From: Acholeplasmatales bacterium
GTDB lineage: Bacteria > Bacillota_I > Bacilli_A > Acholeplasmatales > Anaeroplasmataceae
Direction of reading: 5' to 3'
DNA: 13,329 nucleotides
NCBI GenBank assembly: GCA_017388605.1
Contig: JAFPIE010000025.1
Location: 1-13,329, forward strand
In this document: in pieces, positions 1 to 13,329 of the stretch
Numbering within the stretch: position 1 is the stretch's first letter
Layout: each line of letters starts with the position of its first letter
Made by a program: the position numbers and the translations under genes
Notes under the pieces: model-generated
The model's input: the letters and a program-made list of their open reading frames with translations, nothing else
The model's database searches: none
What the model was told of the DNA's origin: nothing

Positions 1-1
1 A

Positions 2-775
2 GGTCTTACAAGACAAAGGGGAATCGATTCTACGGATGAGCCATTCATAATGTTTATGGATGCAGATGACGAATATATAAATTCGAATGTATTAAGTAGA
101 ATTTTAGATTATTTAAAAAAATATAATCCCAATTATTTAGTCACCAATATTATGGTTGAGGTTTATGTAGATAATCAAAAATCCTTAAGATTAAGAAAAA
201 GGGAAGAAACCTATCCATGGATGCATGGGAAGGTTTATAAAAGGTTTTATCTTAAGGAGCATAATTTAAGATTTCATCCTAATATTAGACATTTAGAGGA
301 TTCTTATTTTACTAGCTGTCTACTTGGTACACTAAATAAAGAGGATATTCATTATTTGGATATCGTATCCTATTTATGGAAAATGAATGAGCTAAGTCTA
401 ACAAGAAAAAAATCAAAATATAATTATATGGTAGATACCTTTGATGATTTTATTTCTTGTGCAAGATATGTATATGATTATTTAACAAGCATTAAAAGTA
501 AAATGAGATTTCCTTATTTTATTCAATCCACATTAGGAATTTATACAGTATTAAATTCAAATTTATTTGATTTTGATGATTTAAAGGATAAAAGAGAAGC
601 CTATTTAAAAGACCTATATGATTATGTGATTAAAAAGAAGAATATATATAAATTAGTATCAGAGGATGTTTTAATTAAGCTTTATGAAAAGGAAATAAGA
701 GAGCTTAAGGAAAGAAATAAATTAAGAGAAATTTATAAAGGCCTAAATGAATTTTTTAATGAATTTTTAATATAA
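2..775 (+). CDS. Family 2 glycosyltransferase, 5' end outside window (partial)
   Basis: The reading frame is open from the first bases, so the gene begins upstream; the ATG at 50 is internal. The visible 257 residues start inside a GT-A fold. An ARN-like segment (GLTRQRGID) leads into FIMFMDADDEY, the DxD-type nucleotide-sugar and metal binding motif (DADD at 59-70). About 60 residues later comes HGKVYKRFYLKEHNLRF followed by HLEDSYF, matching the acceptor-side region with the conserved ED of bacterial GT2 enzymes. Such enzymes move a sugar from an NDP-sugar to a cell-surface polymer, lipid or protein, usually in the cytoplasm. GT2 proteins normally have about 85 residues before the DxD, so roughly 200 bp is missing. 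The C-terminal 120 residues are lysine- and tyrosine-rich and I recognise no domain in them. An 18-nt gap to the giant surface-protein gene implies cotranscription. The sugar and acceptor are unknown. Confidence 0.85.
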   Translation, partial: GLTRQRGIDSTDEPFIMFMDADDEYINSNVLSRILDYLKKYNPNYLVTNIMVEVYVDNQKSLRLRKREETYPWMHGKVYKRFYLKEHNLRFHPNIRHLEDSYFTSCLLGTLNKEDIHYLDIVSYLWKMNELSLTRKKSKYNYMVDTFDDFISCARYVYDYLTSIKSKMRFPYFIQSTLGIYTVLNSNLFDFDDLKDKREAYLKDLYDYVIKKKNIYKLVSEDVLIKLYEKEIRELKERNKLREIYKGLNEFFNEFLI

Positions 776-793
776 AGGAAAGGAGGCAGCTCT

Positions 794-3700
794 ATGAAGG
801 ACGAATTTAATAGAAAAAAGGAATTCGAATATAATAGAAAAATTAAAGAATTTAAACGCTTTGATGCAATCGAATATTATAAACCTAAGGAAATAGCGCC
901 ACTACCTCCTGAAATTAAGAAATTCAAGGAAGGCTTTAATGATAAGCCAGTTGAAGAAAAAAAGGTTATTAAGAATCGATTCGATGAAAAGCTAGAACAA
1001 AAGAATCAAAATAACCAAAGCGAAAATACAAATGCTGATGCACAAAATGTAGAAGCTGAAGGCGCAAATATGAATGGAGGAGCTATAGATAGTAGCGCCT
1101 CTACTACAGCCTCTACAGCCTCAAGTGCCTCTTCAACCTCTACAGTAGTTACTGCATCGACCTCGCTTGCTGGTGGAGTATCGATTATTTCTGCCTGCGC
1201 AATTGTTGCCGCGACGGTAGGCTCAACCGTAATGAATGCTGCCCCAAAGGTAGAATTTTTAGAGGTAGAGGCAGGAAGTGACTACCTACAATATAAAATA
1301 GATGTATTAGAATTAACGGAAGATACCCTATATAAGGTTAAGGTTTATAATGATACCTTTAATTCGGAATATGAGATTCATGAGGAGGGCATCCAAAAAC
1401 AAATCGTTACAGGCTTAATTCCAAATAGAAGATATACGATATCCGTTGTCGCATCAAACGATGATTTAGGTGATATTACCTACTATACCCTAGATTGCTA
1501 CACATCTAAGCTAGAATGCCCTAGGGCCGTATTTGATATCAATTCTACAGTATCTATAGAGGATGGATCCTTTAATTTAGATTATAATGTCTTTATTTCG
1601 GATTATTATCAAACAGGCTATCAAACCTATTTGGAAATCTATATTGATGAAGAGCTCTCTGAAACTAATAGATTATTAGATGAAGAAAATTATTTTAGAG
1701 GTTATTTTAATGACCTATATGAAGGACAAAATATCTATTTTGCTGCATATACGACCTATTATGATGAATTAACGAAGATAGGTGAATTCGGCTATAATCT
1801 AACCTATCCAGATTATATGGCAGATGAAATTTATAAATCGACCTTTGATTTTAAAGCCCCAGTGATCACGACAAGTGAGGATTCCTATTTCATATCGATT
1901 GATACTGGCTTCATACCAGAAAATGAAAATGAGGGCTATATTATTGATGTCTATAAGACAGGAGAATATGATTCTATTCTTACAAATTATAAGCTTAATA
2001 CCTTAGAGGACGATCTCGTTTTAAGCTTTGAAGGACGCGATCAGGTTGCTTCCTTTAATGTTCCTGCAAACCTATATGGTATTGATATTTACCTAACTCC
2101 AACAAAGGAAGCTGCCAACCAAAAGAGATTCTACGCTAAGCGTCATATTGGCTCCTATTCCTTTAGTGAATATAGGGCTTTGGCGAAAGATCCAACCGCA
2201 TCCATTACCTTTAATCCAGTATTAGATTATGATAATAATATTTATAATCTAGATTATGATATTCAAATTAACGATCCATATAATATTGGGGAGGAATTTT
2301 ATTATAAGGTTCTATTAAACAATAATGATTATAGAAATGAAGAAATTACAAGCCATAATGTAGAGTCCACTATAGAAAATTTATATAATGGCTTTACCGC
2401 TGCCATAATCGTTTATAGTAAAAGGAATAATGAAGAAATCATCATTGGAAGTGATGAATTCATTGTTGAATACCCAATAGGCTTTGGTAGCTTCACATCA
2501 AAATACAGCCTAGATAGTCAAAATGTATCCTTAGATTTATGTAAGAATATACTTACAGTAGATACTAAATTTGAACAAGCAAATTCTTTAGAATCCTATA
2601 CATTAAATGTATATGATAGTGATATGAACCTGTTATCTTCTAAGGATTCTATAGAGGCTATAATTACATTTGAAGATATCGAAACAAAGGAATTAATATT
2701 AGAATTTGTTCCAATCTCGAATGGAAAGAGCTTTGATTCTGTATCTATTAATTATACTCAAGAGGATTTAACCTTCGGTCATGATTATCAAATTAGCTAT
2801 GAATGGAATATGGATAACACGAAGGTAACTGCTACGGCAATTTGTCAAAATAATCCAGAGCATATAATTGTTGAAGAGGCAGAACCTACAGTAATTATCA
2901 AGAAGGAAGCAACCGATCTTGAAGCTGGTATTATTCTATATGAGGCTACATTCCAAAATTCCCTATTCACCCTTCAAGCAAGGGAAGTAGAGGATCCATT
3001 TAGAATGGTAAACTTCGATTTATTTGAAAATGAGCTATCCTTAAGTATTTCTTTAGTCGATGGCTATAATGAGGATTCCTATACCTATTCTATAGATTTC
3101 ATTTATAACGATTTAAAGGAAAGAAATCTAAATGGTGAATTTTCAGGCTTTTTAGAGGAGGTATTTGATCTAGATTATGATTCAAATACCTATAGTATTG
3201 ATGATATTTCAAGTATCACATTATCCATTTTTGATATCGATGGTAATTTAGTTAGAACCTATAAATATTTAAGCGATGATGCAAATATTAGCTATTCTCC
3301 TCATCAAATTGATGAAAATGCCATCATTACAATACCTTATGAGATAGAAATCAAGGATGCAACCTTTGATAATGCAATGGTAGTATTTGATAGAGGTACA
3401 AATGAAACCTTCAATGATTTGTCAATGAAGGATAGTATTAGAGTAGAAAATCTTACATCGAATGAGCTTATCTATAATACAACCATTTATTATAAAAAGG
3501 GTACACTTCATATTTCTCGCGAAATGAAAAAGGAAGCTATTTCCTTAGAGACAGAGGTTTCCTTAGATTATTATGCAAGCTATGTAGATTCAGAATACTG
3601 TGCATTCGTAGAAATTGATGCATATATCGATGATGTTAAAATCACTCGTGAGCTAGAGCTTATGGTCTTAAAAGAGGGTATGCTAGATTATGATACCGAT

Positions 3701-6700
3701 AGAATATTGGATTATAAATATATTATTTCTACTAAGGATGATGATGAATCAGATAAGGTAGATTATATAAAAGGATATTATAAAATACCTATAATTCATA
3801 CAAATGAAATCAATTATTTAGATTTAAGAATTGATTCCTTGGGCTATAAGGAAACGATTAATATTCCAAATCCAACCTTCAATAAGATTTCAGCCTATGA
3901 TGATGTAGATAATTATTCTATTCCAGAGGATAATTATTATATTGTAACAGAAGATGACGGAATGAAGTATTATTATTTCAATTTCGATTTAGAAAGCACT
4001 ACAACCAAGGGTGAAATTGTATGTACTATAAATTATTCCTATAAGGAAAATGGTATTACAAAATATGGTCATACCAAGTATTTTACTTCTAAAGATTATA
4101 TTCTTACCGTACCATATGATTTAGAGGATATAAATTTAACTATATATTATAAAGCATTAGATAAATATATAGGAGTAGAGGGAGAGAATAATCCATCTCC
4201 AGCAAATTATAATCTATATGAAAAAGGAGATGGCTCCTATAAGGAGGCATCTAGTTCCTTCATAGATGGTATTACATATTACCAAAGTGAGGGTAATGAA
4301 TATATTATAGTAAATCCACAAATATTAGGCTTATATGAGCTTGATGTAGATCAGTCTTTAGATTCAGATTATTATAAATTATCCTTAGATACAGCATTTG
4401 ATAGTAATAAGCAATATTATGTTTTTGAAGAAGAAAAATATATATTAACCTCTCCATCAAGCCTAGGCTTAATGGTAAAGGAGGATTATATCTTAACAGA
4501 GGATACCTATTTTGATAGTAGGAAGGAATATTTCCAATATATAGATGGAAGCTATATTCTAGCAACTCCAAAGAACTTAAACTTTAAGGAAAGAATATCT
4601 AAAGGCTTAGTATTAGCAGAGGAAGAGGAATTCCAAGAAACTGATTATTATATCTATGATGATCTAAGCTATACCTATAATTTGGTAACTCCAACATCAC
4701 TAGATTTATATGTAAATGATAATGAAACTTTCGAAAAGAGTACAGATACAAGCTTTATGGTAGGTGTAAGCTATTATAAGCTTGTAGGTGGTGAATATGT
4801 ATTCGTAAATCCCGAGTCCTTAGAGCTATATAAATATAGCTATAATGAAGCTTTAACAGAGGATAATGAATTTATTTATTCTTATTTCGATAGAAAGGTA
4901 TATCCAATATCTATAGATGATAAGCTTAAGGCTATATCGAATGATATGCTATATCATAATATAGAAGATGATACGACGATAATAAGATTTAATGTAGATA
5001 CCAATAAGGTAACAGGAGATTCTATATCCCTATCCTTTAATCAAGAGGATATAGAGATTCCAATCTATGATTATGCATATTGTGCTAGTAAATATGAAGA
5101 TCAGGGTGAATATTATACTTACGATATTACTATAGATAATGGAAGTATTACTGTATCTGCATTCTATAGTGAAGAGGCTATCACCTATTATGAAATTATA
5201 ATAACCTTTGAAGGTAATTTAGTAGATGGTAATTACGAAAAGCCAATTGTTGCCTATAGCTATTTCCCTAATGATTTTGTGAATACATTTGATGAAGTTG
5301 TAAATAGTACATCACTTATAGATACTGTATCCTATACGATTGCAGATTCTAATATTACCTATAGTAGTCACTATGTATATGATAATGTAGGTCAAAATGG
5401 CTATACCTTAACGGTAGGATACGAGGAATTTCATTCAGAAAATGATACCGATACCATTTTCATTGAGGTATATTCCGATTCGAATTACCAAAATCTAATT
5501 ACAAGTAAGGGACCGGATTATAGCTATTATAAGGAAGCAAATATAGAGATTCCAAATGAATATTCTATAGTTTATATTAAAACAAAATTCATAAGAAGCT
5601 ATGATGGAAATGAATTAGTTCTATATGAAGAGATTTTAGGTAAGCATATATTAAATGCGGCCTCTATTGAAGATGTTGGCATCAATAGTGATGGTGTATT
5701 CTTTAGAGGAGAGGTACATTCAGAAAATTTAAGCTATAGAATCACTAAGGACTATGAAAATGGATCAAAGGAAAATGAAGATGGTACATTTGATTCTAAT
5801 TCCTTTGACATTTATACAGGTGTAGAGGAAGATATTATAAAATATACCCTTGAGATTATAGATACCAATACCAATGAGGTTTTAGCATCAAGAGATTATA
5901 TCGATTTCATAACGGTATCGGATTATACCTATGATGATTTAAATGATTATATTTCCTTTGATTATGAAATATCTACTTTAGATGATTTAACTATTGAATC
6001 CATAGAGATTAATTATGGAAAGAATGTAATAGAATCCAGTGAATTATCTGGTACATTAAATGAATCTACCCTAAGTGGTGCATATGAAGACTTTAGCTTT
6101 GTTGTTAGCTGTCGCGATAAGGATGATAAAGTGGTTACCTATAGGGTTGAAATCACTAAGGAATTAGAGATTACGGATATTGATTATGAATATGAGATAT
6201 TAGGTATTACCAATTCATCCTATTCCTTCACAAATTACAGTGGTGTATATGATAAAATAAATGATGTTTTATATGATAGGGTATATATAGAGGAAAACAC
6301 AAAAATTTATAAGGATGCAAATGGAAATTTAGCACCTACTGTAGATGATACAGATGTTATCTATATTGACCTAAAGCATACGGCAATATATAAAACGGTA
6401 GGTGAGGTCATTGCCTATGTAGGACCTATTAAGATTTCTTATAATGATTATCAAATTGAGGTTACAAAGGGTGGATCGGGTTTGAATTATCACGAGCCAC
6501 TAGAAAATAACCCAAGAATGATTTTAGGTAGTGAATTTGATAACGAATTAATTTTCTTGCATTCGAATGCAAGCTACTCAGAGGATCAATATAAGAATAG
6601 AGAATATACAACATCTATGGAATTAGAATTTAGTATTTCTTACCAAGGTAAGAGTAAGGATTATAGTATATCCTTTGATAAGGCTTATGAGAATCCTTAT

Positions 6701-7348
6701 AGTTATAATAGTCAATTCTTTGATAGTGAGAATCAAGAATATACTATAGAAAGACTTGAGGGTGATAAGATCAATTTAAGCATCAACTCAGGCTTTAAGA
6801 TAGATGAATATCCAAATTATGCATATAAGATTACCTTATATCCTAAAGATTCTATAGATACTACAGGTGAAGCATTATACAGATCGGATCTTATAACAGA
6901 TTCAGAATATACATTCACAGGTATTGATGATAAGGCCTATAAGGTATCCATTATCGTATATGAGATAAAGGATAATTTAAGAATTTATTATGATTATTAT
7001 GCATATAATCTATCTAAGCCAGCGAATACGGCTGTACTAGAAGGCTACATTTCAAGGGATTATAATACCAACCAATATTATGTTTCTTATATCCTTGATG
7101 AGGCTTATGTAGATAAGAATCAGGATATCAATATTCGCTTTATGGATACGGATCATAATATTTCGCTTACCGAGGGAGAATATGATCTTGATGGCTATAC
7201 AGCGAACGTTACCTCATCTGATGGTAGGATTACGGTTGTTGTAACGGAAGAAAGTCCATCAAGCCGTGATACCTTTGAAGGTTCTATTACTCTATCTGAG
7301 GGTAATAGTGAAATTGGATATAGTACAAAAACTTATTATATTTCTTAA
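794..7348 (+). CDS. Giant N-terminally anchored surface protein with Ig/Fn3-like modules
   Basis: 2184 residues. The start is supported by GGAGG at 782-786, 7 nt before the ATG. Residues 1-75 are lysine-rich with a proline patch (APLPPEIKK), probably cytoplasmic. A spacer follows, with residues 100-117 only Ser, Thr or Ala. A transmembrane segment lies at about 124-149 (LAGGVSIISACAIVAATVG). The remaining ~2030 residues are acidic, tyrosine-rich and beta-strand-patterned. Residues 152-237 look fibronectin-III-like (TGLIPNRRYTISVVASN). Modules at 242-339 and 466-561 resemble each other. Residues 660-732 match a surface-protein domain with the pattern YxW..DN..VTATAxC..NPxH. Five repeats of about 40 residues span 1153-1354. 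The positively charged N-terminus predicts N-in, C-out topology. I see no LPXTG sorting signal, C-terminal membrane helix or enzyme motif. The position between a glycosyltransferase and a channel gene suggests an envelope, adhesion or scaffold role. The function is not recognised. Confidence 0.9.
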   Translation: MKDEFNRKKEFEYNRKIKEFKRFDAIEYYKPKEIAPLPPEIKKFKEGFNDKPVEEKKVIKNRFDEKLEQKNQNNQSENTNADAQNVEAEGANMNGGAIDSSASTTASTASSASSTSTVVTASTSLAGGVSIISACAIVAATVGSTVMNAAPKVEFLEVEAGSDYLQYKIDVLELTEDTLYKVKVYNDTFNSEYEIHEEGIQKQIVTGLIPNRRYTISVVASNDDLGDITYYTLDCYTSKLECPRAVFDINSTVSIEDGSFNLDYNVFISDYYQTGYQTYLEIYIDEELSETNRLLDEENYFRGYFNDLYEGQNIYFAAYTTYYDELTKIGEFGYNLTYPDYMADEIYKSTFDFKAPVITTSEDSYFISIDTGFIPENENEGYIIDVYKTGEYDSILTNYKLNTLEDDLVLSFEGRDQVASFNVPANLYGIDIYLTPTKEAANQKRFYAKRHIGSYSFSEYRALAKDPTASITFNPVLDYDNNIYNLDYDIQINDPYNIGEEFYYKVLLNNNDYRNEEITSHNVESTIENLYNGFTAAIIVYSKRNNEEIIIGSDEFIVEYPIGFGSFTSKYSLDSQNVSLDLCKNILTVDTKFEQANSLESYTLNVYDSDMNLLSSKDSIEAIITFEDIETKELILEFVPISNGKSFDSVSINYTQEDLTFGHDYQISYEWNMDNTKVTATAICQNNPEHIIVEEAEPTVIIKKEATDLEAGIILYEATFQNSLFTLQAREVEDPFRMVNFDLFENELSLSISLVDGYNEDSYTYSIDFIYNDLKERNLNGEFSGFLEEVFDLDYDSNTYSIDDISSITLSIFDIDGNLVRTYKYLSDDANISYSPHQIDENAIITIPYEIEIKDATFDNAMVVFDRGTNETFNDLSMKDSIRVENLTSNELIYNTTIYYKKGTLHISREMKKEAISLETEVSLDYYASYVDSEYCAFVEIDAYIDDVKITRELELMVLKEGMLDYDTDRILDYKYIISTKDDDESDKVDYIKGYYKIPIIHTNEINYLDLRIDSLGYKETINIPNPTFNKISAYDDVDNYSIPEDNYYIVTEDDGMKYYYFNFDLESTTTKGEIVCTINYSYKENGITKYGHTKYFTSKDYILTVPYDLEDINLTIYYKALDKYIGVEGENNPSPANYNLYEKGDGSYKEASSSFIDGITYYQSEGNEYIIVNPQILGLYELDVDQSLDSDYYKLSLDTAFDSNKQYYVFEEEKYILTSPSSLGLMVKEDYILTEDTYFDSRKEYFQYIDGSYILATPKNLNFKERISKGLVLAEEEEFQETDYYIYDDLSYTYNLVTPTSLDLYVNDNETFEKSTDTSFMVGVSYYKLVGGEYVFVNPESLELYKYSYNEALTEDNEFIYSYFDRKVYPISIDDKLKAISNDMLYHNIEDDTTIIRFNVDTNKVTGDSISLSFNQEDIEIPIYDYAYCASKYEDQGEYYTYDITIDNGSITVSAFYSEEAITYYEIIITFEGNLVDGNYEKPIVAYSYFPNDFVNTFDEVVNSTSLIDTVSYTIADSNITYSSHYVYDNVGQNGYTLTVGYEEFHSENDTDTIFIEVYSDSNYQNLITSKGPDYSYYKEANIEIPNEYSIVYIKTKFIRSYDGNELVLYEEILGKHILNAASIEDVGINSDGVFFRGEVHSENLSYRITKDYENGSKENEDGTFDSNSFDIYTGVEEDIIKYTLEIIDTNTNEVLASRDYIDFITVSDYTYDDLNDYISFDYEISTLDDLTIESIEINYGKNVIESSELSGTLNESTLSGAYEDFSFVVSCRDKDDKVVTYRVEITKELEITDIDYEYEILGITNSSYSFTNYSGVYDKINDVLYDRVYIEENTKIYKDANGNLAPTVDDTDVIYIDLKHTAIYKTVGEVIAYVGPIKISYNDYQIEVTKGGSGLNYHEPLENNPRMILGSEFDNELIFLHSNASYSEDQYKNREYTTSMELEFSISYQGKSKDYSISFDKAYENPYSYNSQFFDSENQEYTIERLEGDKINLSINSGFKIDEYPNYAYKITLYPKDSIDTTGEALYRSDLITDSEYTFTGIDDKAYKVSIIVYEIKDNLRIYYDYYAYNLSKPANTAVLEGYISRDYNTNQYYVSYILDEAYVDKNQDINIRFMDTDHNISLTEGEYDLDGYTANVTSSDGRITVVVTEESPSSRDTFEGSITLSEGNSEIGYSTKTYYIS
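1091..1144 (+). repeat. Ser/Thr/Ala-only low-complexity spacer in the giant protein
   Basis: Residues 100-117 consist only of Ser, Thr and Ala, encoded by irregularly repeated GCCTCTACAGC-like units. The tract joins the charged N-terminal part to the membrane helix. It is locally richer in GC than its surroundings. It could be a flexible linker; O-glycosylation is possible only if this segment is exposed outside, which the predicted topology does not favour. Confidence 0.7.
1517..1810 (+). repeat. Internal module copy 1 of the giant protein
   Basis: Residues 242-339. This beta-rich module shares a pattern with the module at 2189-2476: FNLDYNVFISDYYQTG here against YNLDYDIQINDPYNIG there, then DLYEGQNIYFAAYTTY against NLYNGFTAAIIVYSK, each ending in a YP. 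The copies are diverged (98 and 96 residues), which indicates old duplication of an Ig/Fn3-sized unit. Confidence 0.6.
2189..2476 (+). repeat. Internal module copy 2 of the giant protein
   Basis: Residues 466-561, aligned with the module at 1517-1810. Both copies are followed by a segment of similar pattern, DSYFISIDTGF...YIIDVYKTG and KNILTVDTKF...YTLNVYDSD. The duplicated unit is therefore probably a pair of domains rather than one. Confidence 0.55.
2771..2989 (+). other. Surface-protein domain of the YxW..DN..VTATAxC..NPxH type
   Basis: Residues 660-732 of the giant protein. The order of landmarks (TFGHDYQISYEWNMDNTK, VTATAICQNNPEH, KKEATDLEAGIILYEATF, then FTLQAREV) follows a repeat I know from extracellular proteins of gut Bacillota, usually written Y.W..D...CTAT..C.....H..TE......T..ATC...G...YTATF....F. 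The usual cysteine of the ATC element is Asp here, so the typical Cys pair is lost. Only one copy is present. Recognition is from memory of the family pattern, not from a search. Confidence 0.55.
4250..4855 (+). repeat. Five diverged tandem repeats of about 40 residues
   Basis: Residues 1153-1354 of the giant protein. Units start at residues 1153, 1197, 1235, 1276 and 1316 (lengths 44, 38, 41, 40, 39). The shared pattern is D-x-x-F-(D)-(S/G)-x-x-x-YY-x-x-x-(D/E)-x-x-Y-x-x-x-x-P-x-x-L-x-L-Y. Clear examples are DTAFDSNKQYYVFEEEKYIL, DTYFDSRKEYFQYIDGSYIL and DTSFMVGVSYYKLVGGEYVF. The pattern resembles YY-x-(L/V)-x-x-G-x-Y repeats that I associate with phage tail and surface proteins of gut Bacillota. 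That likeness is an impression; the repetition itself is visible in the sequence. Confidence 0.8.
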
Positions 7349-7364
7349 GTAGGAGGAAAAGAAA

Positions 7365-8414
7365 ATGAAGAATAAGAATAAAAAGAAGAAAAAGGGCTTT
7401 ACGATTGTAGAGCTCATCATCTTGGGTGTAGTTTTAGTAACAGCTACTGTATTTATCGTTATTGAAATGACAAACCCAGGAGCTAGTATATCCGTTTGGG
7501 TTAAAGATAACGTAATAGATACGGAAAAAATAGGTAAGGAATTCATGACTCATCTTCCTACTTTGATTCAAAGTATTATTTATATTGTCGTTATCTATGC
7601 AGTATGTAAGCTCATTCGTATGATTTTCCAATATCGTATGAAAAAATCCGATAGAGCGAAAACAGTATTAACCTTACTTGATGGGTTAGTTAAATATGCA
7701 TGTGCTATCGCAATTATTATCTTTGTGCTTCAGGCTTTAGGTGTGAACGCAACCGCAATCTTTGCCTCAGTAGGTATTTTAACCCTAGTTATAGGCTTAG
7801 GCTGCCAAAGCCTTATTGCCGATATTGTTGCAGGTATGTTCATTATTTTTGAAAATGAATACAACGTAGGTGAAATTGTAACCATTGATGATTTTAGAGG
7901 TACTGTCATTGAAATTGGTATTCGTGCAACAAAGCTATTAGATTATGCAGGAAATATTAAGATTATTAACAATTCGGATATTTCGAATGTAGTCAATATG
8001 TCTAGAGAATTATCCTTAGCCGTTGTCGATTGTCTATTCCCATATGATGTACCTGTACAGCATATTGAAAAGATTTTAAAGGACAATTTTGAAGCATTTA
8101 GAGCTAAGGTACCAGGAATTGTAGAAGGACCATTCTACAAGGGCGTATCTGATTTTGGTGCATCAAATATCGCCGTAACGATTATTGCAAAATGTCTAGA
8201 AGAGGATAGATACCAGGTTCAGCGTGATTTAATGAGAGAATATTATATTGCCTTCCACAATGCTGGTATTGATATTTCCTATGATCAGATTGTTGTACAG
8301 CAGTATGAGCCTATCCACATGGATGTTTCAGAGGATCTAGAGAAGGAAGCAACTGAATTCATCAAGGATCAAAGAAATGATTCTAAGGGTATGGAATCCG
8401 ATAATAAGGAATAA
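7365..8414 (+). CDS. MscS-family small-conductance mechanosensitive channel
   Basis: 349 residues, against 286 in E. coli MscS. AGGAGG at 7351-7356 sets the start. Family landmarks: the pore-lining TM3 at about 129-163 with SVGILTLVIGLGCQSLIADIVAG; the membrane exit ENEYNVGEIVTI; the beta domain FRGTVIEIGIRATKLLDYAG then IKIINNSDISN (usual form PNS.I.N); and the C-terminal alpha/beta end HNAGIDISYDQIVV. TM1 and TM2 lie near 66-88 and 107-125. An additional N-terminal helix (about 12-34) precedes the canonical three, and its junction KKKKKGFTIVELIIL looks like a type IV prepilin leader. MscS channels open under membrane tension to release osmolytes during hypo-osmotic shock. The gene is last in its operon, 16 nt after the giant surface-protein gene and just before a terminator. 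The family call is firm; the gating signal and ion preference are unknown. Confidence 0.95.
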   Translation: MKNKNKKKKKGFTIVELIILGVVLVTATVFIVIEMTNPGASISVWVKDNVIDTEKIGKEFMTHLPTLIQSIIYIVVIYAVCKLIRMIFQYRMKKSDRAKTVLTLLDGLVKYACAIAIIIFVLQALGVNATAIFASVGILTLVIGLGCQSLIADIVAGMFIIFENEYNVGEIVTIDDFRGTVIEIGIRATKLLDYAGNIKIINNSDISNVVNMSRELSLAVVDCLFPYDVPVQHIEKILKDNFEAFRAKVPGIVEGPFYKGVSDFGASNIAVTIIAKCLEEDRYQVQRDLMREYYIAFHNAGIDISYDQIVVQQYEPIHMDVSEDLEKEATEFIKDQRNDSKGMESDNKE

Positions 8415-8420
8415 GAATAC

Positions 8421-8449
8421 AAGGTCTTCATTTTGAAGGCCTTTTTCTT
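8421..8449 (+). terminator. Rho-independent terminator after the MscS gene
   Basis: Arms AAGGTCTTC (8421-8429) and GAAGGCCTT (8435-8443) pair over 9 bp with one G-U wobble, around the loop ATTTT. The run TTTTTCTT follows. It begins 6 nt after the channel stop codon and separates the two transcription units. Confidence 0.9.
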
Positions 8450-8543
8450 AACCCATAATTTTCTTAAATTTTAGAAAAGAAACAGGGTGAAGAATAAAAT
8501 GTAAGATATACATCACATTTAAAAATTTTTGTTAAAAAAAGAA

Positions 8544-8558
8544 TAACAATCGTTGTTA
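8544..8558 (+). promoter_or_regulatory. Inverted repeat upstream of the -35 box, candidate operator
   Basis: TAACAATCGTTGTTA is a perfect 6-bp inverted repeat around a 3-nt centre. It ends 7 bp before the -35 element. Another TTGTTA half-site lies at 8529-8534. The position suits an activator or an upstream-binding repressor. I do not recognise the regulator. Confidence 0.45.
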
Positions 8559-8565
8559 AAATTAT

Positions 8566-8593
8566 TTGCTTGTATATAAAAGCGTGATATAAT
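8566..8593 (+). promoter_or_regulatory. Predicted sigma-A promoter of the AAA+/DUF2357 operon
   Basis: TTGCTT (8566-8571) and a perfect TATAAT (8588-8593) are separated by 16 bp, predicting transcription from about 8600. It follows the terminator and is the only good promoter I see before the gene at 8654, leaving a leader of about 54 nt. Confidence 0.7.
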
Positions 8594-8612
8594 AAAATGA
8601 TTTAATTTGGGC

Positions 8613-8633
8613 GTTATTTATGGAATAAATAAC
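8613..8633 (+). promoter_or_regulatory. Perfect 9-bp inverted repeat in the 5' leader, candidate operator or hairpin
   Basis: Arms GTTATTTAT (8613-8621) and ATAAATAAC (8625-8633) are exact reverse complements around GGA. The site lies about 13 nt after the predicted transcription start and 8 nt before the GGGAGGG ribosome binding site (8642-8648). It could be a repressor operator or an AU-rich leader hairpin. The lack of a T-run after it argues against a terminator. Confidence 0.55.
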
Positions 8634-8653
8634 AAAATACCGGGAGGGATATA

Positions 8654-9661
8654 ATGCAATCTAAGGATGAACCCGTAGTAGTTTCAAGTTTTAAAAAGGA
8701 TGATGGACCAGAGCCTGTATTTGTTGCTGAAGGCAAGGAAGCAGATATTGAGCCTGTCATTTTAAAATACGATATCAAGAAAAATGAAGAGAAAAAGGGC
8801 TTCTATGTCCAAATGCCTAAGGTAACACTAACTAGTGTTGCTCTTAAAAATATGGCTGAAGAAATTGGTAAGGCATTAAAGAATGAAGGAATGGAGCTAA
8901 GAGGTAAGGATTTAAAGCTTTTTGTATCCTCCTTAACCTCAAGGCTTATTTATATTCCAAAAAATGATGCTAAGGAATATATGGAATGTATTTCCAAATA
9001 TTTTTGTGGTAATGTTTTTTATGCGAAAAGCCAAAACGATTCAGCTATTTTAAAATGCGCCTATAGCGCTATTACAAATCCTTTAGTTATCCACTTTTTA
9101 CTTTGGGATAATGAAAAGGGACACCCAATGCCAGAGTATTTAATTAAATATATTTCCTTACCATCATCGAATGTTGAAATGATGGTGAATGAATATGTGA
9201 ACGATATTTATATTAATAAAATCAAATTGCCAGATAATATCTATATCGTTATGACAGGGGATTTAGACACCTTAGATAAAAGATTATATAAGAAATATGT
9301 CATTTGGGATCCAAGACTTAAAAGATGTGAAAAGGAAAATCAAGGATTTAAGATTATTTCTATGAATTCATTTAAGAATATGCATAAGGTTATGGATACT
9401 GTACCCGATAGCCTATGGAGTAAAATGAGTACGATAGAGGAAGTCTTAAATTCTATGAATTTTACTTTAGAAAACAAGGATTGTAATTCCTTAGATGATT
9501 ATTTAGTTACCTTATATAACCAAGAGGTTTTAGAAGAGGATATTCTAAAATATTTATGTGAATATAGATTATTCCCTATGGTAAAGAATTTTATTGATGT
9601 AAATGAATTCAAAAGAAGACTAAATGAGCTTGGTATATATAAAGAGGGAAGGGAGATTTAA
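8654..9661 (+). CDS. Probable pseudo-ATPase: degenerate AAA+ paralogue of the next gene
   Basis: 335 residues, soluble, with no membrane helix. GGGAGGG at 8642-8648 sets the start. No obvious family is visible by itself, but it aligns with the McrB-like ATPase at 9663 along its length. GKDLKLFVSSLTSRLIYI (84-101) matches KEDIRRFIAGLATSHIMI. HFLLWDNEKG (147-156) lies where HITILDEMNI carries Walker B. KIKLPDNIYIVMTGDLDTLD (189-208) matches QIKLPDNMWFIGTVNNDDST. YVIWDPRLKR (215-224) matches AMIMNLDKR. YLVTLYNQEVLEEDILKYL matches YLASYIACGGDEMEALDDIL. The GxxGTGKT loop is replaced by PKNDAKEY, the Walker B glutamate is Asn153, and the FGNRINRQI arginines are absent. Residues 1-60 are a charged tail. 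It probably cannot bind or hydrolyse NTP and may be a structural or regulatory subunit. The stop is 1 nt before the next start codon. Confidence 0.7.
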   Translation: MQSKDEPVVVSSFKKDDGPEPVFVAEGKEADIEPVILKYDIKKNEEKKGFYVQMPKVTLTSVALKNMAEEIGKALKNEGMELRGKDLKLFVSSLTSRLIYIPKNDAKEYMECISKYFCGNVFYAKSQNDSAILKCAYSAITNPLVIHFLLWDNEKGHPMPEYLIKYISLPSSNVEMMVNEYVNDIYINKIKLPDNIYIVMTGDLDTLDKRLYKKYVIWDPRLKRCEKENQGFKIISMNSFKNMHKVMDTVPDSLWSKMSTIEEVLNSMNFTLENKDCNSLDDYLVTLYNQEVLEEDILKYLCEYRLFPMVKNFIDVNEFKRRLNELGIYKEGREI

Positions 9662-9662
9662 T

Positions 9663-10874
9663 ATGAACCTATTTCAAAACCCATTGTTTTTAATTATTTT
9701 ACTTGGAATATTATTCTTAGGCCTATTAGCCTTAGCTATATTATTCTTTTTCTATACAAAAAAGCCTATCGATAAGGATAAAAAGGAAAATCAAGCAACA
9801 AGATTTAATGCCCTACTTGAAATTGATAAGGAAAACGAAGGCTTAGAGCCTATCGTATATGAAAAAATAGGCTTCCAAGAATTATGTGAAGCATTCAGAA
9901 GCTATGCTGCAAGTGAGCTTGGACTATATTATTCTAAAGAGGATATAAGAAGATTTATTGCAGGACTTGCGACTAGCCATATTATGATTTTACAGGGTAT
10001 GTCTGGTACAGGTAAAACATCCCTAGCCTATGCCTTTGGCCGCTTCTTTGAAAATGATTCTGCAATCATTCCTGTTCAGCCTATGTGGAAGGAAAGAACC
10101 GATTTAATTGGTTATTATAATGAATTCACAAAGAAATTTAATGAAACTCCATTTTTGGAGGAAATGTATAAGGCGAATTACAAGCCTGATATGCATATTA
10201 CTATTCTAGATGAGATGAATATCGCAAGAGTAGAATATTATTTTGCTGAATTCCTATCCTTACTTGAAATTCCAGATCCAGAATCTAGATATATTGATGT
10301 TGTATCATCGAAATTTGAAAATGATCCAAAGCTACTTAAGAATGGTCAAATTAAATTGCCAGATAATATGTGGTTCATTGGTACAGTAAATAACGATGAT
10401 TCCACCTTCTCTATTTCGGATAAGGTATACGATAGAGCTATGATTATGAACCTAGATAAGCGTGCAACTCCATTTGATGCAGAAAACCCAGGTACAAAGA
10501 AGATTTCCGCATTCGACTTTATAGGGCTTTCTAAGGAAATCGATAAGGCTTATACCATGAGCAGTGAATTAACCGATTTATTAACGAAATTAGATTTATA
10601 TTTACAGGATAATTTCTATATTTCCTTTGGTAATAGAATTAACCGTCAAATTCACCAATATTTAGCAAGCTATATAGCCTGTGGTGGAGATGAGATGGAA
10701 GCGCTAGATGATATTTTAGCTAAGAAGGTATTTAGAAAATTAGGTAATGGAAGCCAAGCCTTAGTAAAGAAGGAAATCGATAACTTATTTGAAATGCTCG
10801 ATGAGCTATTTGGCGAAGGTAAGATGGAAGAATGCCGTAGTGCAATCTTACGTATTGCCCAAACAACAAGATAG
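9663..10874 (+). CDS. Membrane-anchored McrB-like AAA+ ATPase (copy 1)
   Basis: 403 residues. I chose the ATG at 9663: it follows GGGAAGGGAG at 9646-9655 at good spacing and 1 nt after the previous stop. The in-frame ATG at 9624 would add 13 residues overlapping the previous gene and lacks a good binding site. One transmembrane helix (about 8-31) is followed by a basic linker, so the ATPase domain should be cytoplasmic. Motifs: Walker A GMSGTGKTS (112-120, Lys118); Walker B ITILDEMN (179-186, Asp183, Glu184); sensor 1 GTVNNDD (240-246); a KVYDRA segment (254-259) with a candidate arginine finger; FGNRINRQI (322-330) as candidate sensor 2. LDEMNIARVEYYFAEFLSLLE is typical of the McrB/dynein-related AAA group. 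McrB uses GTP; whether this protein uses GTP or ATP cannot be read. It is likely to act with the DUF2357 protein downstream. Confidence 0.85.
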   Translation: MNLFQNPLFLIILLGILFLGLLALAILFFFYTKKPIDKDKKENQATRFNALLEIDKENEGLEPIVYEKIGFQELCEAFRSYAASELGLYYSKEDIRRFIAGLATSHIMILQGMSGTGKTSLAYAFGRFFENDSAIIPVQPMWKERTDLIGYYNEFTKKFNETPFLEEMYKANYKPDMHITILDEMNIARVEYYFAEFLSLLEIPDPESRYIDVVSSKFENDPKLLKNGQIKLPDNMWFIGTVNNDDSTFSISDKVYDRAMIMNLDKRATPFDAENPGTKKISAFDFIGLSKEIDKAYTMSSELTDLLTKLDLYLQDNFYISFGNRINRQIHQYLASYIACGGDEMEALDDILAKKVFRKLGNGSQALVKKEIDNLFEMLDELFGEGKMEECRSAILRIAQTTR

Positions 10875-10892
10875 AATTTTTGAGGTAAGCGT

Positions 10893-12557
10893 ATGGACCA
10901 AATGAAAAGGGTCTACTGGAAGCTGTCGGATTATATCAATGAAATCAAGGATATGAAGGAGCTAGATTCCTTAATTAAGGATTTAGCAAGATATAACGAA
11001 AAGGATGTTTTCCAGAGGATAAAAAACGAAATTAAAATTGAAGATGATTGGATTATATTTGCAGAATCCAAGATGAAATATGTAGAAAAAGCGGTATTTG
11101 AAAACCGCCAATTCATTAGAGAGGAAGGAGAGGTATTACCTATTGAAAGAATCAAGAGGGTATCTCATAATTCTGTTGAGCATCTTGCGAAGCATTCGGA
11201 TTATATTGAAAAATATACAAAGGATGAGGAAATTATTCCATCAAAGCTTTATACCGTAAATAAGGATACCGATTATGGTGTATATGAAAATAAATTCATT
11301 TATTTATTGTTATTAACCCTATCGGATTTTATTACGAGAGTAAAGGATGATATTTTAGCCTCTATTAAAAGTGATAATGGTATTTTTAATGTATCTAGAA
11401 AAAATGAAATCCTAGGGGATGAAATTACTCTATCCTTACGTATGACATTTAAAAGCTTAGATGTCGAGGAGTCTATTTTAGAAAATGAAGCATCCAAATT
11501 AAAAAGAATGGATGAATTAAAGGAAAGAGTAAATGTATTACTTCAAACTCCACTTATGCAGATTGTATCTCGTGAGCCTGTAATTTCATCTAATATTACA
11601 AAGACGAATGTTTTAACGATGAATGAGAATTTCTCTAATTCACTAGAGCTTTATGAATATTTATTAAATTATGATAAGAGCTTCTATAAAAATGAGAAAA
11701 TTGCGAACGTAGTACCACTATCGAGTAATCTTGCATTCCCTGTGATTGGCTTTGAATTATTGGTATCTCTACTTAAAAATTCCTTGATGGATGAATATGA
11801 AGCATCAAGTAAAGCGCTAGAGGTAGATTTTAAAAAGAAGGCTATCGATGATTTATCGAAAAGAATCGAAAAGCTTAAGGATAGCTATCAAAATGATCCT
11901 GCATCCTATATTGCACTACTTGAGGATAAGATTAAATTACTTGAGGGGGAAAGAGAAAATTCTATTGCCCTTAAGGATTCCTTAGATAAGATTATTTTAG
12001 CCAATGATGGCTTAAAGAAGGAAAATGAATCCTTAACTAAGGATATAGAAAATCTTTTAAGTAAATTAAAGGATGTAGAGGATAAGCTTAAGGATATCCA
12101 TCTTGCAGAGGATTTAGTAAGAAGAGAATACGAGGATAAGCTAAAGGAAAAGAATGCTGAAATCGTGGAGCTTAGAGATTCACTAAAGAAAAAGAGTGAC
12201 GAATGTGTAAGTATAACGATAGAAAAACAAAATGCTTTAGCTAAGATAGATAAATTAAAGGAAGATTTAGATTCCTTAAGAAAGAATAATAGCGAGGCTG
12301 TAAGAGAATTCGAATTAAAGCTTGAAGAAAAGGATAGAGAAATTCAAGAATTATTAGAATTTAAAAGATTAAATGAAGCTAGATTCAAAGGAATACAGGC
12401 TATGGCTGGAGAATTAAAGGCTATTGATGCAGAGGTATCTAAGGAAGCCTTCGATGAGCTTGAAAACGAATATAATGCCTTCACAAGGTATTATGAGGAA
12501 GTTTGGAATAGAACAAAAAAAGAGATTATAAAGGAAATTAAGAGAAAGAAGGGATAA
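10893..12557 (+). CDS. DUF2357/McrC-like protein with a long C-terminal coiled coil
   Basis: 554 residues. GAGG at 10882-10885 lies 7 nt before the ATG. Residues 1-310 look like DUF2357: NSVEHLAKHSDYIEK (93-107), PSKLYTVNKDTDYGVYENKF (116-135) and a following hydrophobic helix. The tyrosine-Glu-Asn motif (YEN) is the signature shared with McrC. In McrBC, this N-terminal part of McrC inserts into the McrB ring and stimulates its NTPase. Residues about 340-500 are a Lys/Glu-rich heptad coiled coil, then a helical, basic tail (YYEEVWNRTKKEIIKEIK). I see no PD-(D/E)xK nuclease motif, which McrC carries at its C-terminus. The gene lies between two McrB-like ATPase genes, 18 nt after the first and 1 nt before the second, so a role as their central partner is likely. 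It could instead be a structural stalk. Confidence 0.8.
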   Translation: MDQMKRVYWKLSDYINEIKDMKELDSLIKDLARYNEKDVFQRIKNEIKIEDDWIIFAESKMKYVEKAVFENRQFIREEGEVLPIERIKRVSHNSVEHLAKHSDYIEKYTKDEEIIPSKLYTVNKDTDYGVYENKFIYLLLLTLSDFITRVKDDILASIKSDNGIFNVSRKNEILGDEITLSLRMTFKSLDVEESILENEASKLKRMDELKERVNVLLQTPLMQIVSREPVISSNITKTNVLTMNENFSNSLELYEYLLNYDKSFYKNEKIANVVPLSSNLAFPVIGFELLVSLLKNSLMDEYEASSKALEVDFKKKAIDDLSKRIEKLKDSYQNDPASYIALLEDKIKLLEGERENSIALKDSLDKIILANDGLKKENESLTKDIENLLSKLKDVEDKLKDIHLAEDLVRREYEDKLKEKNAEIVELRDSLKKKSDECVSITIEKQNALAKIDKLKEDLDSLRKNNSEAVREFELKLEEKDREIQELLEFKRLNEARFKGIQAMAGELKAIDAEVSKEAFDELENEYNAFTRYYEEVWNRTKKEIIKEIKRKKG

Positions 12558-12558
12558 T

Positions 12559-13329
12559 ATGAAATCCTTTAAAACTTGGATATTTATTACCTTCGGTATA
12601 GTAATTCTCATTATTACATTATTAATAATTGGTGTAATTTTATTCTATGGGAATGGCTATAGCCTAGAGGGTACTGTTGGCATATATTTAATGCTTATAT
12701 TATCCCTTGTTTTAACAAGTCTTTTAGCAGGTGTTGTACTTGTAAGCTTACTCATGAAGGACAAAAGAGTTAGAAGTAAGGATCAAGCACATGCCTTTCC
12801 TCAGCTTGAAAGAATTGATTTAGAAATGAAAAAGAATCCTCCACTACCCTACGATAAGGTTAGCTTGAAGGAATTCTGTGATGAATTCAGAAAATTCTCT
12901 GCAGGCGAGCTTGGACTATATTATTCTATTGAGGATATAAGAAGATTTATCGCAGGTCTTGCGGTATCCCATATTTTAATATTACAGGGTATGTCTGGTA
13001 CAGGTAAAACATCACTTGCATACGCATTTGGTAAATTCATTGAAAGAGATTCAACGATTATTCCTATACAGCCAATGTGGAAGGAAAGAACGGATTTACT
13101 TGGCTATTATAATGAATTCTCTAAAAGATTTAATGAAACCCAGTTTTTGGAAACCATTTATGAGGCCAACTGGAGAAATGATATGTTTATTACCATTTTA
13201 GATGAGCTTAATATCGCAAGAGTAGAATATTATTTTGCAGAATTCCTATCCTTAATGGAAATTCCATCAAGCTCAAGATATTTAGAGATTATCTCATCGA
13301 CATCTATCCATGATCCAGTGAAGATGAAA
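12559..13329 (+). CDS. Membrane-anchored McrB-like AAA+ ATPase (copy 2), 3' end outside window (partial)
   Basis: 257 residues are visible and the frame stays open to the window edge. AAGAAGGG at 12546-12553 precedes the ATG, which lies 1 nt after the previous stop. Two membrane helices (about 7-29 and 41-66) form a hairpin, unlike the single helix of copy 1, then a linker and the AAA+ domain. Walker A is GMSGTGKTS (144-152, Lys150) and Walker B is ITILDELN (211-218, Asp215, Glu216). QPMWKERTDLLGYYNEF and NIARVEYYFAEFLSLMEIP match copy 1. Residues 102-236 align without gaps to residues 70-204 of copy 1, with 104 of 135 identical by hand count. The sensor and arginine-finger region lies beyond the end, so catalytic completeness cannot be confirmed. 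It may form a mixed ring with copy 1. Confidence 0.85.
   Translation, partial: MKSFKTWIFITFGIVILIITLLIIGVILFYGNGYSLEGTVGIYLMLILSLVLTSLLAGVVLVSLLMKDKRVRSKDQAHAFPQLERIDLEMKKNPPLPYDKVSLKEFCDEFRKFSAGELGLYYSIEDIRRFIAGLAVSHILILQGMSGTGKTSLAYAFGKFIERDSTIIPIQPMWKERTDLLGYYNEFSKRFNETQFLETIYEANWRNDMFITILDELNIARVEYYFAEFLSLMEIPSSSRYLEIISSTSIHDPVKMK

Follow-up and report, generated by a model that had tools for sequence, protein, structure and literature searches.

McrB and McrC are known as restriction enzymes, and McrC sits in the pore of the McrB ring. According to passages of the CoCoNuT paper (PMC11090510), the McrB hexamer is bound by the DUF2357 protein, which stimulates its hydrolysis; CoCoNuTs are McrBC systems of the NxD branch with coiled coils and nucleases and with predicted RNA targeting, in which a HEPN or other nuclease is encoded nearby when the McrC nuclease is missing. 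The same passages, published in 2024, briefly name CoCoPALM, a system with a transmembrane (TM)-fused McrB, a coiled-coil McrC and a link to pilus assembly, whose features include an associated signal-peptidase-family protein and an FtsB-like TM/coiled-coil domain fused to McrB. The locus considered here is a four-gene operon (8654..13329) of an Acholeplasmatales bacterium (Anaeroplasmataceae; assembly GCA_017388605.1, contig JAFPIE010000025.1), lying in a window, the whole stretch of DNA analysed, of positions 1–13,329. An initial annotation of this DNA observed four parts, a dead AAA+ protein (gene 1), a one-TM McrB (gene 2), a nuclease-free coiled-coil DUF2357 protein (gene 3) and a two-TM McrB (gene 4), all of which are confirmed. 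The composition is well supported; the function, which we infer, is probably that of an envelope machine, in which nucleotide hydrolysis by a membrane hetero-ring is coupled, through a DUF2357 axle, to giant surface proteins, rather than that of a restriction system.

Several features of Type IV restriction are present, namely an McrB-type AAA+ protein with Walker A, Walker B and sensor N/D motifs and a DUF2357 partner, and the likeness to E. coli McrBC extends to the AAA+ ring protein and the DUF2357 stimulator fold (structures 6ut6 and 6hz4 were matched). In contrast to E. coli McrBC, however, there is no PD-(D/E)xK nuclease on the McrC protein and no N-terminal DNA-binding domain on McrB, the system is membrane-anchored, and it has three AAA+ paralogues. 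A nuclease-poor McrC with a coiled coil and an McrB-like nucleoside triphosphatase (NTPase) motif compatible with NxD are shared with CoCoNuT, from which the operon differs by its membrane anchors and surface proteins; no HEPN or other nuclease was found among the families of 43 and 30 downstream genes, nor among the best 25 of 52 families listed from a scan of 60 upstream genes. The likeness to CoCoPALM comprises a TM-bearing McrB-like NTPase, a coiled-coil McrC/DUF2357 protein (helix 336–504 of gene 3) and envelope-type partners; at the place of the FtsB-like TM/coiled-coil domain of the CoCoPALM McrB, the McrBs here carry TM anchors. The initial description of the system as undescribed stands in part: judged from titles, abstract starts and opened passages, none of the publications found in literature searches describes this operon or the combination of two McrBs, a dead subunit and surface proteins, while the related CoCoPALM already has a paragraph in print.

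Conservation of the operon and its neighbourhood

The survey covered the best 80 of 326 related loci in genome contigs, plus the window (L numbers denote fetched loci), and features were called by profile searches of all six frames; 48 of these 81 loci, having at least 5.2 kb before and at least 5.5 kb after the DUF2357 gene, were assessable. The dead-subunit and surface-protein profiles were seeded from some of the surveyed loci, and the figures describe this family rather than all DUF2357 genes. A dead AAA+ gene upstream, a McrB gene downstream and at least two N-terminally anchored surface proteins downstream were each found in 48/48 assessable loci; an upstream McrB was present in 46 (the exceptions being L022 and L065), and the order dead–McrB–DUF2357–McrB was also seen in 46/48. 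All operon features found lay on one strand. The co-occurrence that the initial annotation had proposed to examine is therefore real, its picture of membrane-associated, nuclease-free and triplicated ring components is borne out, and its envelope-machine alternative gains from the surface proteins.

Of the relatives fetched, Anaeroplasma bactoclasticum (L001) is the closest, with 68% in gene 3. It has the same four genes, the counterpart of gene 4 being 431 amino acids (aa) at full length, followed by genes of 832, 795 and 3017 aa, each with a predicted N-terminal TM segment. The surface proteins of the family are large, repeat-rich and N-terminally anchored, with short N-termini before the anchor; in the second of them the consensus is a short tail, MLYxxYxxK, from which L001 departs. 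Pfam searches of 43 mostly first downstream genes matched antigen-I/II (AgI/II) C2 in 17, a transglutaminase core in 16 and YDG in 10, and among 30 mostly second downstream genes the corresponding numbers were 15, 3 and 8, with MBG_2 in 4. The first set held 43 of 44 rows (L017 was left out; a few others, e.g., L068, look like second genes), including L038:3938, which is the DUF2357 gene itself and may be that set's single DUF2357 match; the second consisted of 29 of 40 second downstream genes and the third gene of L001. Since these library matches agree with the profile calls, the surface nature of the proteins is supported independently. No LPxTG-type end was found in the complete surface proteins (59 first, 28 second).

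Further companions are a conserved three-TM protein (30/48 assessable loci), which had no Pfam family match, and a protein with a cytoplasmic-type domain, a TM segment and an ectodomain (28/48). Both accompany the operon in Clostridia (L004:3929-4675 and relatives for the former, L097:10806-17640 for the latter); L099 has two genes of the domain/TM/ectodomain layout downstream of the operon instead.

The surveyed loci are labelled mostly as Clostridia metagenome-assembled genomes, then as Anaeroplasma/Acholeplasmatales, with one Haloplasma-labelled and one Bacillales locus, and the carriers are mostly gut-dwelling bacteria. Among 398 genomes of the phylum of Anaerocaecibacter muris (at most three candidates scored per genome), only A. 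muris itself had a long match, and two McrB matches lay close together in six of 151 genomes of its order. Such a patchy distribution would by itself also suit a mobile or accessory trait. The Haloplasma-labelled locus, L024, has the record title Haloplasma contractile isolate B5_bin.1; H. contractile is contractile and wall-less, and a link to cell movement is worth a look.

Within the order of A. bactoclasticum, 94 of 150 genomes match the DUF2357 alignment, some by the coiled coil only, and 15 of them reach E 1e-120 or better. Five weaker-match loci, picked by eye (L091–L095), each contain one McrB and one DUF2357 protein and had no match to the dead-AAA+ or surface-protein profiles; the genomes of L091 and L092 carry the present operon as well. 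S26/S24-type peptidase matches, mostly below the curated cut-off, lie beside L093 and L095 and PF10502 matches beside L091 and L092, so that S26-like weak Pfam or genome matches occur in four of the five, the four that were scanned. Small secreted-looking proteins lie nearby, with N-termini that we take to be reminiscent of TasA-type subunits. McrB bears TM segments in L092–L095; in L091 a short TM protein has an open reading frame (ORF) of its own, apart from that of the ATPase. These loci, labelled CoCoPALM-like in this analysis, fit the CoCoPALM description in the CoCoNuT paper (PMC11090510). Because they pair McrB and DUF2357 with S26-like peptidases and small secreted-looking proteins, they strengthen the envelope context.

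The present family is nonetheless distinct. In a midpoint-rooted tree, a 100/100 branch separates the five CoCoPALM-like McrBs compared from the 82 of the family; the former read N-K-D-D-S-T where the latter read N-N-D-D-S-T, and a single McrB with no dead subunit and other partners contrasts with the two differently anchored McrBs, dead third paralogue and large YDG-type surface proteins found here. A signal-peptidase link as in CoCoPALM was rejected for the operon: PF10502 matches within 10 kb of the DUF2357 gene were found in 0/12 genomes, in a search limited by the shortness of some operon contigs and by the low scores of divergent S26 relatives, which lie close to the limit of detection, and the nearest match lay 22.9 kb from the DUF2357 gene and about 18 kb from the dead-AAA+ gene (genome G008).

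The AAA+ proteins and the DUF2357 protein

The two ATPases carry the hallmarks of active McrB-type motors. Gene 2 matches AAA_5 above the Pfam cut-off, and the Walker A, Walker B and sensor N/D motifs are invariant across 15 aligned McrB1 proteins; among 135 Walker-A-bearing McrB frames, LDE[LM]N occurs in 130 and NNDD in 131. The sensor region reads TANNDDS in 76/80 and TVNNDDS in 3/80 motor domains, which fits NxD followed by D, although NxxD is also formally matched. The N-termini of both proteins consist of TM segments and short linkers, without a DNA-binding domain.

Within a locus the anchors of the two ATPases differ, yet identity between the motor domains reaches 98% or more in 26 of the 56 loci that carry both, in an ungapped comparison from the Walker motif that underestimates the identity of diverged pairs. 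These 26 pairs have 338 synonymous and 12 replacement codon differences, and unbroken identity extends 41–104 residues upstream of Walker A, into the linker before the anchors. A tree of 87 motor domains includes 25 of the near-identical loci, and in 24 of them (all but L040, which is unresolved) the two copies of a locus group as sisters, across both Clostridia and Mycoplasmatota; separate McrB1 and McrB2 branches are formed by one Clostridia clade (13 loci) and by the Anaeroplasma/window lineage. Differences are patchy along the motors of L027 and L040, as after gene conversion. The pattern points to concerted evolution, in which the twin proteins would be kept, or repeatedly made, equal in motor and not in anchor. 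Near-identity and the same-locus sisters together suggest that both anchors use the same motor, which is what a single ring or a shared axle would lead one to expect. Selection for motor identity itself is not claimed, because orthologues are similarly constrained. An assembly artefact is an unlikely source of the identical motors, given that DNA differences separate the two copies in 21/26 pairs; the pair from the Anaerocaecibacter muris CLA-AA-M11 strain record, for example, shows 13 synonymous differences and 1 replacement.

Twelve contigs of about 3.1–3.8 kb (L003, L005, L008, L011, L012, L020, L030, L034, L039, L049, L060, and L079) contain just the DUF2357 gene and adjoining pieces of McrB; breaks in assembly at the near-identical repeats of the motor are a possible cause, and would conceal the operon in short-read data. 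In an Acholeplasmataceae genome (L016:4854-5976) McrB1 is present only as fragments in separate pieces, probably a decayed copy.

Gene 1 is a catalytically dead AAA+ protein and a paralogue of McrB. No TM segment is predicted in the window copy; at least one is predicted in 57 of 63 family members. The dead AAA+ domain forms the C-terminal part of a longer protein in 13/20 aligned relatives, behind a region of the glycoside hydrolase 3 (GH3) C-terminal type and an Fn3-like domain. None of 51 long members has an SDW segment, which we take to be the GH3 nucleophile motif, within its first 700 residues, and because it is missing the GH3-like part is probably non-catalytic too. Such fusions stand upstream of McrB1 in a number of Clostridia loci, L013, L026 and L057 among them, and TM helices often separate the two parts; each fusion would be a doubly inactive enzyme.

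In the structural model of gene 3, residues 336–504 form one long helix, followed by a C-terminal helix; the coiled coil of about 170 residues would measure about 25 nm if straight. A second structural look (VIA) gave McrC as the best match of the DUF2357 model, which suggests an McrC-like N-terminal domain, whereas the whole model had no Foldseek match at E ≤ 0.001. A search of PDB sequences with the gene 3 family gave, in the best 60 of 210 rows, apparent coiled-coil matches among solved structures and no McrC. No Pfam nuclease was found on gene 3; the model and the aligned relatives run mostly into coiled coil.

A proposed envelope machine and its alternatives

Genes 1–4 would constitute that half of a conserved envelope machine which lies in the cytoplasm and the membrane. 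The NTPases of genes 2 and 4 would be held at the inner membrane face, by one TM segment and by a two-TM hairpin, respectively, and gene 1 would join them as a related subunit without catalysis; most likely the three make up a mixed AAA+ ring whose pore holds the DUF2357 domain of gene 3, as McrB rings hold McrC, an arrangement already suggested by the initial annotation. The coiled coil of gene 3 may serve as a lever or tether. The targets of the ring would be the giant single-pass surface proteins whose genes follow directly in relatives, with their YDG, MBG, antigen-I/II-C2 and transglutaminase-like ectodomains; it would assemble, move or remodel them at the expense of NTP. All of this is proposed from sequences and models: that a ring forms and with what stoichiometry, how the parts are oriented in the membrane, that they touch the surface proteins, and what work is done.

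An active mechanical or assembly role is ranked first and a MoxR/RavA-like chaperone or extractor second, in which the ring would unfold, insert or remove giant proteins rather than move them or grow fibres. This alternative is possible, if doubtful; it is narrower than the envelope machine and overlaps it, so that the confidences in the two do not sum to one. To our knowledge MoxR systems have neither an axial DUF2357 domain nor a long coiled coil, which speaks against it, and Z differences within AAA+ do not show function. Equally tentative is a stronger form of the envelope machine, in which the hetero-AAA+ ring would actively drive or polymerise giant YDG-repeat fibres for adhesion, surface motility or cell contact through the DUF2357 axle and the 25-nm lever. 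It would then be an envelope nanomachine of a new class, with a motor taken over from restriction to actuate the surface, both in wall-less relatives of Mollicutes and in walled Clostridia.

Membrane-localised anti-phage defence, in which the ring would sense phage nucleic acid or infection and the anchors or surface proteins would act as effector or receptor blockade, seems unlikely. It could draw on the known place of McrB and DUF2357 in Type IV restriction, on the patchy distribution, on the reading of coiled-coil relatives as defence systems in passages by the CoCoNuT authors (PMC11090510), and on PDC-M26A, a PADLOC phage defence candidate that matches the McrB part of gene 2 (E 2.9e-52; the best stretch covers model positions 312–431 of 724). 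This model also matches the CoCoPALM-like McrBs, more weakly, and hence catches the McrB core; a literature search for PDC-M26 by name found no publication. Against defence, the operon genes scanned include no nuclease or known effector, 60 flanking upstream genes (of 82 upstream rows; alignments A4 and A8 had 20 and 24 rows) yielded five PADLOC families, each in one member only, the flanks that were read look like housekeeping genes, and the linkage to surface proteins is constant. The defence effector that the initial annotation had envisaged beyond the window is not supported: relatives have surface proteins there. Viral contigs gave 73 pattern matches, none of them a relative, and a viral origin was rejected. 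An ordinary McrBC restriction locus with its nuclease encoded elsewhere is very improbable: McrB-like and McrC-like domains are present, but gene 3 continues mostly into coiled coil in place of a nuclease, TM anchors stand where the DNA-binding domain would be, and the genes past 13329, which might have revealed such a locus, are represented in relatives by anchored surface proteins. A restriction locus was rejected on these grounds.

If the envelope machine is real, the McrB/McrC family gains a second life, with a nuclease-free membrane McrB tied to large surface proteins, and the operon suggests that bacteria can drive or build their surface in a manner as yet unstudied; the brief CoCoPALM idea would become a testable programme. 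Two anchors on one motor, near-identical in many loci, would offer a natural experiment on how mixed AAA+ rings hold together, and McrB matches in defence-gene catalogues (e.g., PDC-M26A) would need caution, as they can be envelope genes.

Operon boundaries and other features of the window

The features of the operon are collected in the table below. Before gene 1, the extended −10 element read by eye lies at 8585-8593, its −10 hexamer at 8588-8593; a promoter scan did no better than chance, and this candidate was absent from its output.

Table. Features of the operon and its upstream boundary in the window
Feature	Position	Strand	Remarks
Terminator-like hairpin after the MscS gene	8421..8443	+	Operon boundary; 1 found against a mean of 0.1 in shuffles
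Candidate promoter	8566..8593	+	TTGCTT, 16 nt, extended −10 TGATATAAT; by eye, putative
Shine-Dalgarno-like GGGAGGG	8642..8648	+	5' of gene 1
Gene 1	8654..9661	+	Inactive AAA+ (pseudo-McrB) subunit, 335 aa
Gene 2	9663..10874	+	McrB-type ATPase, one N-terminal TM helix, 403 aa
Gene 3	10893..12557	+	DUF2357/McrC-like N-terminal domain, long coiled coil, C-terminal helix, without nuclease
Gene 4	12559..13329	+	McrB-type ATPase, N-terminal two-TM hairpin, truncated by the window end

Two genes precede the operon in the window, one for a 2184-aa protein (794-7348) and, after it, one for an MscS-type channel (7365-8414). They were rejected as operon members because a BLAST comparison with the ORFs of the 80 loci found no relative of either and the terminator-like hairpin intervenes. 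The 2184-aa protein has a cytoplasmic-type N-terminus of about 120 aa, one TM segment and a giant ectodomain, a layout like that of the cytoplasmic-domain/TM/ectodomain partner in relatives.

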